From Parcubacteria group bacterium CG1_02_44_31 (GTDB lineage Bacteria > Patescibacteriota > Minisyncoccia > UBA6257 > Brennerbacteraceae): DNA of 40,152 nucleotides. The number at the start of each line of letters is the position of its first letter. The stretch's first letter is position 1. Location: the NCBI GenBank assembly GCA_001872485.1, contig MNWK01000030.1, positions 1 to 40,152 of the forward strand. The letters are read 5' to 3'. Positions 8,555 through 22,061 of this stretch are shown in pieces. The position numbers and the translations under genes were made by a program. Under the pieces are notes generated by a model that had not been told where the DNA came from, ran no database searches, and worked only from the letters and a program-made list of their open reading frames with translations.

Positions 8555-8572
8555 AGCGTATTGCGTCCATGC

Positions 8573-8790
8573 ACCACGTTAGAAGTCTGCTATTAAATTT
8601 TGTAGCAGAAGAGTGTTAAAAACACTTCTTGGTCATTGTTATTTATGGGCTTCGTCTTCGCAAGAACTTTGTTCTTGCGAAGACCATGATATTTTACCAC
8701 AAGAGGCAGCATTATATCATATATCATAATTATTGTAATGGCACAAATATATATGACATAAAAGACGAGCGTTCGCGACTTCTAACGGGG
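8573..8790. repeat. Possible TIR unit, family 2
   Basis: Ends CCACGTTAGAAGTC ... GACTTCTAACGGGG are inverted; shares CCCCGTTAGAA-type ends with 18217-18285. Confidence 0.4.
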
Positions 8791-8842
8791 CAAGCCCCTC
8801 ATGCCAAATTTTGGTGTGGGGGCAAGGGCGTGGAACGGGAAC

Positions 8843-18216: not shown

Positions 18217-18285
18217 CCCCGTTAGAAATCTCGCCCGCGTTCAAGCGCGCCCGTAGGGCTTAAGGGCAGGCTATTTCTAACGGGG
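18217..18285. repeat. TIR element, family 2
   Basis: Perfect 13-bp ends CCCCGTTAGAAAT ... ATTTCTAACGGGG. Confidence 0.75.
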
Positions 18286-19999: not shown

Positions 20000-20301
20000 G
20001 TCAGGGTAGCTCAGCTGGTTAGAGCGCAGCACTTTCACCCGCCCACTTCATGCCTATGTAGTTTCCTCCTTCGCGCCTCGATACTTTCGGTGCTTCGGAC
20101 GGACGAGTAATGATAGGTTATGTATTATTCGCCCATCGAAGCTCCGACGATAATTCGGAGCGAAGTTGGGCCTATGTAGTTCAACGGCTAGAACGAGTGA
20201 CTCATAAACACTAGAAGGAAGTTCGACTCTTCCCATAGGCACAGATAAAGTGTGGCGGGCAAGTAACGCTGAAGTCGTGGGTCCGAATCCCACCCCTGAC
20301 A
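20000..20301 (+). tRNA. Interrupted tRNA: halves 20000-~20037 and ~20264-20301 separated by 228 nt in the anticodon loop
   Basis: Acceptor GTCAGGG/CCCTGAC, D arm GCTC/GAGC, anticodon stem CAGC/GCTG, T arm GTGGG/CCCAC; removing 228 nt gives a 74-nt tRNA. Anticodon depends on the junction (TGT, TTT or TTC); TTT gives a typical tRNA-Lys loop CTTTTAA. Confidence 0.6.
20170..20241 (+). tRNA. tRNA-Met (CAT)
   Basis: GCCTATG ... CTCATAA loop ... GGAAGTTCGACTCTTCC CATAGGC A; lies inside the interruption of the other tRNA. Confidence 0.88.
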
Positions 20302-20392: not shown

Positions 20393-20399
20393 ATTCCTA

Positions 20400-20615
20400 T
20401 AAAAGCAACGACGCTGCAGACACAGCTGAGCTGAAGGAAGAAATTCCGATGTCATGTCGGGAAAGTAGAACCTTTCGGGAAGTTCCCGTTATAGAACAAA
20501 GAATGTGTCAATAACAAATTGGAGCATTCGACAAGTACAAGGTAAGGTGGCACCGCGAAGATCGCCCTTACAAATGTATCAATTATTGTTGATATAATTG
20601 TAAGGGTGATTTTTT
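20400..20615 (+). promoter_or_regulatory. T-box riboswitch leader with antiterminator/terminator
   Basis: T-box AAGGTGGCACCGCG at 20544-20557; antiterminator GTAAGG...CCTTAC; terminator ATCGCCCTTACAA...TTGTAAGGGTGATTTTTT. Confidence 0.92.
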
Positions 20616-20627
20616 ATTAAAAAATCT

Positions 20628-21941
20628 ATGGGACGCATACACATTAAAGATATCCGTGGGCATATTGGACAAGAAGTAACGCTTGCGGGATTTGTTCATA
20701 CTGTTCGCAATCAAGGGAATATCGTGTTCCTTATGCTTTATGATATTTCTGGAAGTGTCCAGGTTGTTATTACAAAAGACTACCTCTCTATTATTAAAAC
20801 CGCAAAAAACTTATCTGAAGAATCTGTTGTACAAGTTACGGGGATAGCTAAGACAGAAGCACAATCGCCTGGCGGTATAGAAATTGCATGCAGAACATTA
20901 ACTATTCTCTCTGCCGCAGATCCCAACACTCCCATTCCAGTAATCGGAAAACAGGAATCGGAGGTGGAACTTGACAAACGGCTTGACTGGCGATGGCTTG
21001 ACTTACGAAAACCCAAAAATACTTTAATTTTTAAGGTATGGACCATAATGGAACAGGCGTTCAGAGAATACTGGATACAAAATGGTTATATTGAAATTCA
21101 TTCCCCGAAGTTTATGAGTACACCAAGCGAAACTGGTGCAGAATTATTTGAAGTCAAATACTTCGATCGGAAAGCATATCTTGCGCAATCACCGCAGTTT
21201 TATAAACAAATGGCTATGGCCGCAGGATTTGAAAAAGTGTTTGAGGTCGGGCCGGTCTTTCGTGCGAATCCATCTTTTACGTCTCGACACGATACTGAAT
21301 TCACAGGGTACGATGCCGAAATCTCATTTATTGAGTCTCACCAAGATGTAATGACTGAAGAGCAAAATGTAATTCAATATGTCCTACAAAAAATTAAAGA
21401 AAAGTTCGGGAAAGAAATCTCGATGTTTTATGGCAGAGATTTGATTGTACCAAGCATTCCTTTTCCACGTGTCACCATGAAACAAGCGAAGGGAATCCTT
21501 GCCAAATTAAATGTACCCGGTGAAAAAGATGGTGACTTGAGTCCAGGAGAAGAACGAAAATTGTGTGAATATATTTATGAAAAACAAGGTCATGAATTTG
21601 TCTTCGTAACGGAATATCCAGTTAGCGCACGACCATTCTATCATATGCGAACCGAAAAAGACCCAACGTTGACAAAAAGTTTCGACCTGTTGTGGAACGG
21701 ATTGGAAATAACAACTGGCGCGCAAAGGGAACACCGATATGACATTCTTACGTTACAAGCAAAAGAAAAAGGGATATCGCTTGAGTCGATTAAATTTTAC
21801 TTGAATTTCTTCAAATATGGTTGCCCGCCGCACGGCGGTATGGGTATTGGGCCATCTCGTATGCTTATGAAAATATTTAATGTTAGTAATGTCCGAGAAG
21901 TAACATACTTATACAGGGGTGTAAAACGACTAGATCCGTAG
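20628..21941 (+). CDS. aspS: Aspartyl-tRNA synthetase (archaeal-type length; possibly non-discriminating Asp/Asn)
   Basis: 437 aa; HSPKFMSTPSETGAELFEVKYFDRKAYLAQSPQFYKQ, FEVGPVFRANPSFTSRHDTEFTGYDAE, GGMGIGPSRMLMKIF. Confidence 0.92.
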   Translation: MGRIHIKDIRGHIGQEVTLAGFVHTVRNQGNIVFLMLYDISGSVQVVITKDYLSIIKTAKNLSEESVVQVTGIAKTEAQSPGGIEIACRTLTILSAADPNTPIPVIGKQESEVELDKRLDWRWLDLRKPKNTLIFKVWTIMEQAFREYWIQNGYIEIHSPKFMSTPSETGAELFEVKYFDRKAYLAQSPQFYKQMAMAAGFEKVFEVGPVFRANPSFTSRHDTEFTGYDAEISFIESHQDVMTEEQNVIQYVLQKIKEKFGKEISMFYGRDLIVPSIPFPRVTMKQAKGILAKLNVPGEKDGDLSPGEERKLCEYIYEKQGHEFVFVTEYPVSARPFYHMRTEKDPTLTKSFDLLWNGLEITTGAQREHRYDILTLQAKEKGISLESIKFYLNFFKYGCPPHGGMGIGPSRMLMKIFNVSNVREVTYLYRGVKRLDP

Positions 21942-21986: not shown

Positions 21987-22061
21987 GCAGCCGTAGTGTA
22001 GCCTGGTTAACATGTCGCCCTGTCACGGCGAAGATCGTGGGTTCGAATCCCATCGGCTGCG
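21987..22061 (+). tRNA. tRNA-Asp (GTC)
   Basis: GCAGCCG ... TCGCC CTGTCAC GGCGA ... GTGGGTTCGAATCCCAT CGGCTGC G. Confidence 0.93.

Follow-up and report, generated by a model that had tools for sequence, protein, structure and literature searches.

A complete tRNA-Met gene that lies within a broken tRNA in the genome of the ultra-small bacterium Parcubacteria group bacterium CG1_02_44_31 has most likely replaced the outer gene, which by its sequence is an orthologue of elongator tRNA-Met(CAT) and not of a Lys, Glu or Thr tRNA. The locus is part of a 40,152-nucleotide stretch of DNA (contig MNWK01000030.1, positions 1 to 40,152; the window), and the source genome has 527 kb in 37 contigs and is 94% complete. 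Nested tRNAs of this kind recur among related bacteria, and they probably arise from palindrome-flanked tRNA cassettes which insert into a cognate tRNA gene, kill the host gene and supply its replacement. The parts of the locus are as follows.

20000–20033, + strand: 5' half of the host elongator tRNA-Met (positions 1–33, end ..GCAGCACT)
20034–20263, + strand: tRNA-Met cassette insert of 230 nt, ends TTCACCC...GGGCAAG, in place of host C34-A35
20038–20048, + strand: left arm of the cassette stem (CCCGCCCACTT), assigned by own-arm pairing across the cassette family
20052–20063, + strand: 12-nt duplicate of the cargo tRNA 5' end (GCCTATGTAGTT), left flank of a secondary insertion
20064–20169, + strand: secondary insertion of 106 nt
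20170–20242, + strand: cargo, an intact tRNA-Met(CAT) (ARAGORN; Rfam RF00005, 63.7 bits)
20247–20259, + strand: right arm of the cassette stem (AAAGTGTGGCGGG)
20264–20301, + strand: 3' half of the host tRNA-Met (first base T36, TAACGCTG.., end CCCTGACA)

The earlier note on this DNA had described two tRNA halves of regular geometry around a complete tRNA-Met(CAT), and this arrangement is borne out. The 228-nt interruption that it gave holds as a net count, but the insert itself has 230 nt and replaces the two nucleotides CA of the empty site. The insert is longer than those of relatives because 106 nt interrupt its cargo region; with these subtracted the cassette has 112 nt, and the cassettes of relatives have 113–127 nt. 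The whole locus folds as RNA into a tRNA with an anticodon arm lengthened by the insert's own stem (z = -3.9 versus shuffles).

The identity of the host is indicated by its intact counterparts. In BLAST searches of 61 genomes (the source genome and 60 relatives), intact versions of the host are all tRNA-Met(CAT) with the loop CTCATAA, and in family members these orthologues share an upstream gene and the adjoining tRNA-Asp with the window locus. The host 5' half has 94–100% identity over 32–34 nt to intact tRNA-Met(CAT) of the family members G002–G005, and the 3' half has 77–88% identity to the 3' halves of intact tRNA-Met in relatives. An interim assignment of the host to tRNA-Arg(CCT) was ruled out by the same orthologues. 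The empty site itself is seen in a pair of congeners: the intact tRNA-Met of G115 is identical to both host halves of G116, in which the CA of CTCATAA is swapped for TTCACCCC..tRNA-Met..GGGGCAAG. In G001, which belongs to the same family as the source genome, the same locus has only a cargo-type tRNA (86% identity) in the opposite orientation.

This orthology speaks against the earlier proposal of an intron whose removal would give Lys(TTT), Glu(TTC) or Thr(TGT). Among the 38 tRNA matches above the Rfam cut-off in the source genome, intact Lys(TTT), Glu(TTC) and Thr(TGT) genes are found at other places, which the earlier note itself had named as evidence against an intron. The only CAT tRNAs found in this genome are the cargo and one of initiator type (L024); a tRNA-Ile(TAT) is present, which makes it unnecessary to postulate a CAT-type tRNA-Ile. 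Apart from the cargo, the source genome thus appears to have no intact elongator tRNA-Met, and the carriers tested likewise have one intact elongator CAT gene each, namely the cargo. The reading of the host as a dead gene holding a tRNA, offered before as an alternative, is judged right, but the signs of decay on which it drew are not: the A31.C39 mismatch is present in the intact orthologues of relatives too, and the T-loop TCCGAAT with C55 occurs in many other tRNAs of the source genome (e.g., Val, Asn, Thr and Gln), and therefore neither marks decay.

The Met cassette (TTCACCC-stem, tRNA-Met, stem-GGGCAAG) was found by similarity and pattern searches as 11 inserts in 10 Patescibacteria genomes, all interrupting tRNA-Met: besides the source genome, these are G010, G017, G116, G321, G364, G450, G506, Parcubacteria Gr01-1014_30 and Candidatus Paceibacter. 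A species-wide scan (85,488 species, one genome apiece) gave 14 matches, eight of them true, and the true ones all lie in Patescibacteria or the G017 bin. Host and cargo of these nests are both elongator tRNA-Met in every case, with sequence types A in B, B in A and A in A. The 11 inserts have the common ends TTCACC...CAAG (one CATG), and their arm sequences vary yet remain self-complementary: the mean pairing energy of own arms is -22.3 kcal/mol versus -12.3 kcal/mol for swapped arms, with 0 of 100,000 permutations as good. For all kinds of nests described below (n = 68), the corresponding values are -19.0 and -12.1 (0 of 20,000 permutations as good). Compact Met cassettes (113–127 bp) consist of arms, tRNA and short spacers, and encode no integrase. 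The tRNA-in-tRNA arrangement turns up in genomes independent of one another, which puts it far beyond chance. The further idea that many 'native' tRNA-Met genes are surrounded by host remnants was dropped: in a test of 68 loci and 39 control tRNAs, few of the tRNA-Met loci had such remnants (among others, those of G480, G557, G331 and G281), and the control tRNA-Thr loci proved to be nested themselves.

Nests of other isotypes were sought with the pattern TAGYTCAN{4,8}AGARCN{22,52}TAGYTCA, which places two D-arms nearer to each other than two whole tRNAs allow. It matches 60 of 392 Paceibacteria genomes, and the reversed control matches none; when genomes whose sole match is a complete tRNA beside a chance motif are dropped, nested tRNA pairs remain in about 55 of the 392 (about one in seven). 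The 74 nests read in detail include those of Thr (TGT, CGT), Val (TAC, CAC, GAC), Ile (GAT, TAT), Arg (TCT, GCG), Ala (TGC) and Met type. Two further nests lie in the source genome: one of Ile(GAT) at G000:C7, and one of Arg(TCT) at G000:C9, whose host T-loop holds a palindrome. By their ends, type I inserts (Met, Val) have TTCACC..CAAG or CAGG in place of a CA, and type II inserts (Thr, Ile GAT, Arg) have CYYG-like 5' ends and are seated between two bases without loss. Nests of tRNA-Ile(TAT) in L276 (G478), L286 (G115), L271 (G457) and L249 (G469) have other, longer ends, as in CTTATA/ACTGGCAGCGAGG..CCAGTTATACG..TATA/CACG, and possibly form a separate insert class.

Host and cargo agree in their anticodons. 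Wherever the host anticodon is readable it equals that of the cargo, all Met cases included. In 52 of the 63 non-Met nests N34N35 is identical in host and cargo, as against 11 expected and a maximum of 23 in 20,000 shuffles; in the remaining 11 the host loop is cut or lost ahead of position 35. The identity is exact even in Val CAC/GAC and Thr CGT, anticodons which a U34 tRNA could cover, and so exceeds what survival alone predicts, a point against the takeover model.

The same cassettes are found in different hosts. Thr cassettes of G343 and G265, which belong to different families, are 99% identical in the cargo and 100% identical in the left arm, as against 78% for the host 5' halves. Identical Met cassette ends are found in two distinct host types (GTAGCTCAG.. 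and GTAGTTCAACGG..) and also in Val. Nests can have more than one level: two-level Met nests occur in G017 and G373, one Val nest of G437 has two hosts around one cargo, complete on both sides, and another nest of that genome has three host 5' halves. At L281 (G373:C33), the host of a tRNA-Met cassette has the same sequence as the cargo it encloses, and the arms are repeated unchanged at the two levels; either the insertion happened very recently, or recombination at the end of a contig produced this structure.

Host genes are often damaged. The full set of 7/7 acceptor and 5/5 T-stem pairs is kept in just 38 of 74 hosts; several hosts have lost a half (the 3' half in G321) or have gained extra palindromes in the D- or T-loop. 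Such decay is what silent genes undergo, but against the takeover model, about half of the hosts keep a perfect cloverleaf. Unrelated palindromes are seen in the D- or T-loops of the dead hosts L255, L266, L256, L285, L196 and L143, which suggests that in these genomes hairpin loops of any kind are favoured sites for the insertion of palindromes. A tRNA-free palindrome with cassette arms lies in the T-loop of L255. A check for REP-type repeats within the window revealed two tRNA-free palindromes with related arms.

8572–8794 (to 8826), + strand: larger tRNA-free palindrome, CACCACGTTAGAAGT ... ACTTCTAACGGGGCAAG
18217–18285, + strand: tRNA-free palindrome, arms CCCCGTTAGAAAT/ATTTCTAACGGGG

The arms of the palindrome at 18217–18285 are identical to those of tRNA-Thr cassettes elsewhere (compared with L223, L237 and L244), and the palindrome from 8572 has the right end GGGGCAAG as in Met and Val cassettes.

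Based on these results, the element would be a hairpin-forming unit of about 110–130 bp, kin to the palindromic repeats of these genomes, with a complete tRNA gene in its loop. The cassette would enter the anticodon loop of a resident tRNA gene with the same anticodon and destroy it, and the insertion would be tolerated because the cargo takes over the resident's job. The nest would be transcribed with the cargo in the same direction, and the usual enzymes of tRNA maturation (RNase P at the 5' end, processing enzymes at the 3' end) would release the cargo as a mature, functional tRNA, with the host remaining silent. The host halves would decay afterwards, and the cargo would be open to the next cassette, giving rise to nests two or three deep. 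The cassette may move as single-stranded or hairpin DNA, perhaps via a REP-type (Y1/RAYT) transposase. The cassettes encode no transposase; Y1_Tnp genes are present in 16 of 20 carriers versus 8 of 18 others, a weak enrichment (p = 0.04, uncorrected for kinship), with two in the source genome and four carriers having none. A REP-like hairpin route with Y1 transposases is plausible, although the loss of two target bases in type I is unlike IS200/IS605 insertion. More tentatively, and with rather more doubt than trust on our side, the cassettes may represent selfish tRNA genes as a class of their own: hairpins with a tRNA as their sole gene would home to the anticodon loop of a tRNA gene with the same anticodon, silence the resident and make the cell dependent on them, serial takeovers would drive tRNA turnover in Patescibacteria, and the anticodons would match through the way in which the cassettes insert, not through survival alone.

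That the insert is an intron, with the host spliced by some other route so that host and cargo tRNAs come from one transcript, is improbable. Such a reading would account for the constant position in the anticodon loop and for the host arms that are intact in 38 of 74 cases. Also, exact removal restores a normal anticodon loop in the type II hosts (Thr TTTTG/TAA, Ile CTGA/TAA, Arg TTGCG/GA, with the junction at the slash), and the RNA of host plus arms resembles a bulge-helix-bulge, with ACUU/AAGU between 3-nt bulges. In the window, however, the insert replaces C34-A35 and is therefore no excisable intron; as the insertion has cost the anticodon two of the bases present at the empty site, no single excision should give CAU in a 7-nt loop. 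Met and Val hosts in general would be left two loop bases short, and hence without a normal tRNA, where excision of a group I or II intron restores the host. The group I intron suggested earlier finds no counterpart in Rfam: at the gathering score and at E up to 10, the window yields only tRNA, a sub-threshold T-box and chance matches, and no group I or II intron. About 40 nt are left in the window insert when cargo and secondary insertion are subtracted, and no catalytic core was matched in it; the cassettes minus cargo have about 40–70 nt, which is below the size of a self-splicing ribozyme. ARAGORN in intron mode, a check proposed with the intron, returned a 208-nt intron parse (CAT) whose cut falls within the cassette and whose exons do not pair sensibly; for three other nests it returned no intron, and the parse was given no weight. 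The tRNA-splicing endonuclease EndA (PF01974) is absent in all 13 genomes searched (the control recovered four of four archaeal positives), and RtcB is absent in all 12 Patescibacteria genomes tested besides the source genome, six of the seven carriers tested among them; the source genome is the sole carrier tested with an RtcB gene (G000:C31:7170-8477). In many genomes, moreover, host halves are lost or further invaded beside an intact cargo of the same anticodon. Host splicing is thus unlikely in Met and Val nests, given the loss of two loop bases and the lack of EndA wherever tested; in type II nests it is possible.

The main rival concerns the route of movement and does not contest the takeover itself: natural transformation, with recombination across the tRNA halves, could have spread the nested allele without a transposase, which we regard as unlikely if still a serious contender. 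It explains why the site is fixed, why the anticodons match exactly and why the CA deletion is shared, the host halves offer 30–40 nt of conserved flanks in every case, and the Ile(GAT) cassettes of G000 and G258 are alike in cargo, arms and host type, as expected from it. It does not readily explain the same Met ends in two differing host types and in Val, Thr cassettes 99–100% alike in hosts that are 78% alike, or copies of tRNA-free palindromes outside tRNA genes, and the flanks are very short. An ordinary pseudogene, an old tRNA copy disrupted at random with another tRNA inside it by coincidence, would fit a host that is probably non-functional; recurrence in about 55 of 392 genomes, cargo of the same anticodon, conserved arms and ends and multi-level nests make this account very improbable. 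Slighter still is the probability of an assembly artefact of metagenome bins: metagenome-assembled genomes make up nearly all records, but the same architecture is obtained from independent assemblies of differing sequence, and some carriers (G343, G010 and G265) are assemblies of 5–10 contigs with 100% estimated completeness. The nests are located inside long contigs.

The cassettes share single features with several known systems. Group I introns reside in the anticodon loops of bacterial tRNA-Leu, -Ile and -Arg, and the cassettes are likewise located in the anticodon loop; unlike these introns, they have no ribozyme core and no Rfam match, they contain a complete tRNA and, in Met and Val, loop bases are deleted. 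In archaeal and eukaryotic protein-spliced tRNA introns (reviewed in PMC4090602), a stem prolongs the anticodon arm and there are bulges that those of the cassettes resemble, but the cassettes depart from the strict bulge-helix-bulge motif by an extra C opposite the UCA bulge; in addition, such introns depart from the present case in that the genomes tested have no EndA homologue and most carriers lack RtcB. The closest precedent in logic is phage tRNA-dependent lysogeny, in which a host tRNA is broken and a tRNA of the same isotype is supplied (Guerrero-Bustamante and Hatfull, 2024; PMC10865867). As in elements of that kind, the host tRNA is disrupted and the junction is unrestored, as seen in G115 and G116. 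In lysogeny the vehicle is a whole prophage with a tyrosine integrase, whereas the cassette has about 120 bp and no protein gene, uses the anticodon loop as its site, places the replacement inside the broken gene and can repeat the process as nests. In form, the closest known relatives are REP/REPIN palindromes, which are small, probably non-autonomous and have short unpaired ends (Di Nocera et al., 2013; PMC3733652). The cassettes are similarly small, palindromic and probably non-autonomous, with short unpaired ends, Y1_Tnp is present in most carriers and tRNA-free copies exist; in contrast to REP/REPIN, their loop contains a whole tRNA gene, their site is a cognate tRNA, and their ends are TTCA...CAAG or CYYG where REP tags are GTAG or CGTC. 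As neither the intron features nor the REP tags were found and no integrase is encoded, the cassette is classed with elements that break and replace a tRNA, provisionally as a variant in a vehicle for which no description was found. The open-access literature, to which the search was directed, yielded no description of nested or interrupted tRNAs in these bacteria, and the novelty is accordingly provisional.

If the cassette model is true, single tRNA genes can be self-replacing mobile elements, to our knowledge the smallest that disrupt an essential gene and provide a stand-in for it, and the alternation of elongator tRNA-Met types between close relatives would be explained. Serial gene takeovers would have left a fossil record in the nested form, routine tRNA annotation of Patescibacteria would silently overlook the broken host genes, and type II nests would allow a direct test of whether bacteria splice tRNAs without EndA.

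The secondary insertion in the window is itself of a recurrent kind. The 106 nt lie between the two copies of a 12-nt direct repeat, which has the sequence of the first 12 nt of the cargo, and they resemble sequence upstream of tRNA-Arg(GCG) and tRNA-Phe in this genome and of tRNA-Arg in G001. Comparable 12-nt duplications and similar sequences precede tRNA-Met genes at L142 and L148 in other genomes. In each case an element of about 105 nt (..TCCTCC..CTTCGG..GGAC..hairpin..) lies between a 12-nt duplicate of the tRNA 5' end, ending in GTAGYT, and the full tRNA; its sites are window positions 20052–20181, L142 and L148 upstream of tRNA-Met, L057 (G001:C45) and L056 (G000:C17). This is a second recurrent kind of tRNA-targeted element, one that leaves the tRNA intact through duplication of its first 12 nt. 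Downstream of the nest, a T-box-like leader (positions 20399–20612; RF00230, 41.8 bits against a gathering score of 93) precedes a gene for a class II (D/K/N) aminoacyl-tRNA synthetase (20628–21941), and a tRNA-Asp is located at 21987.
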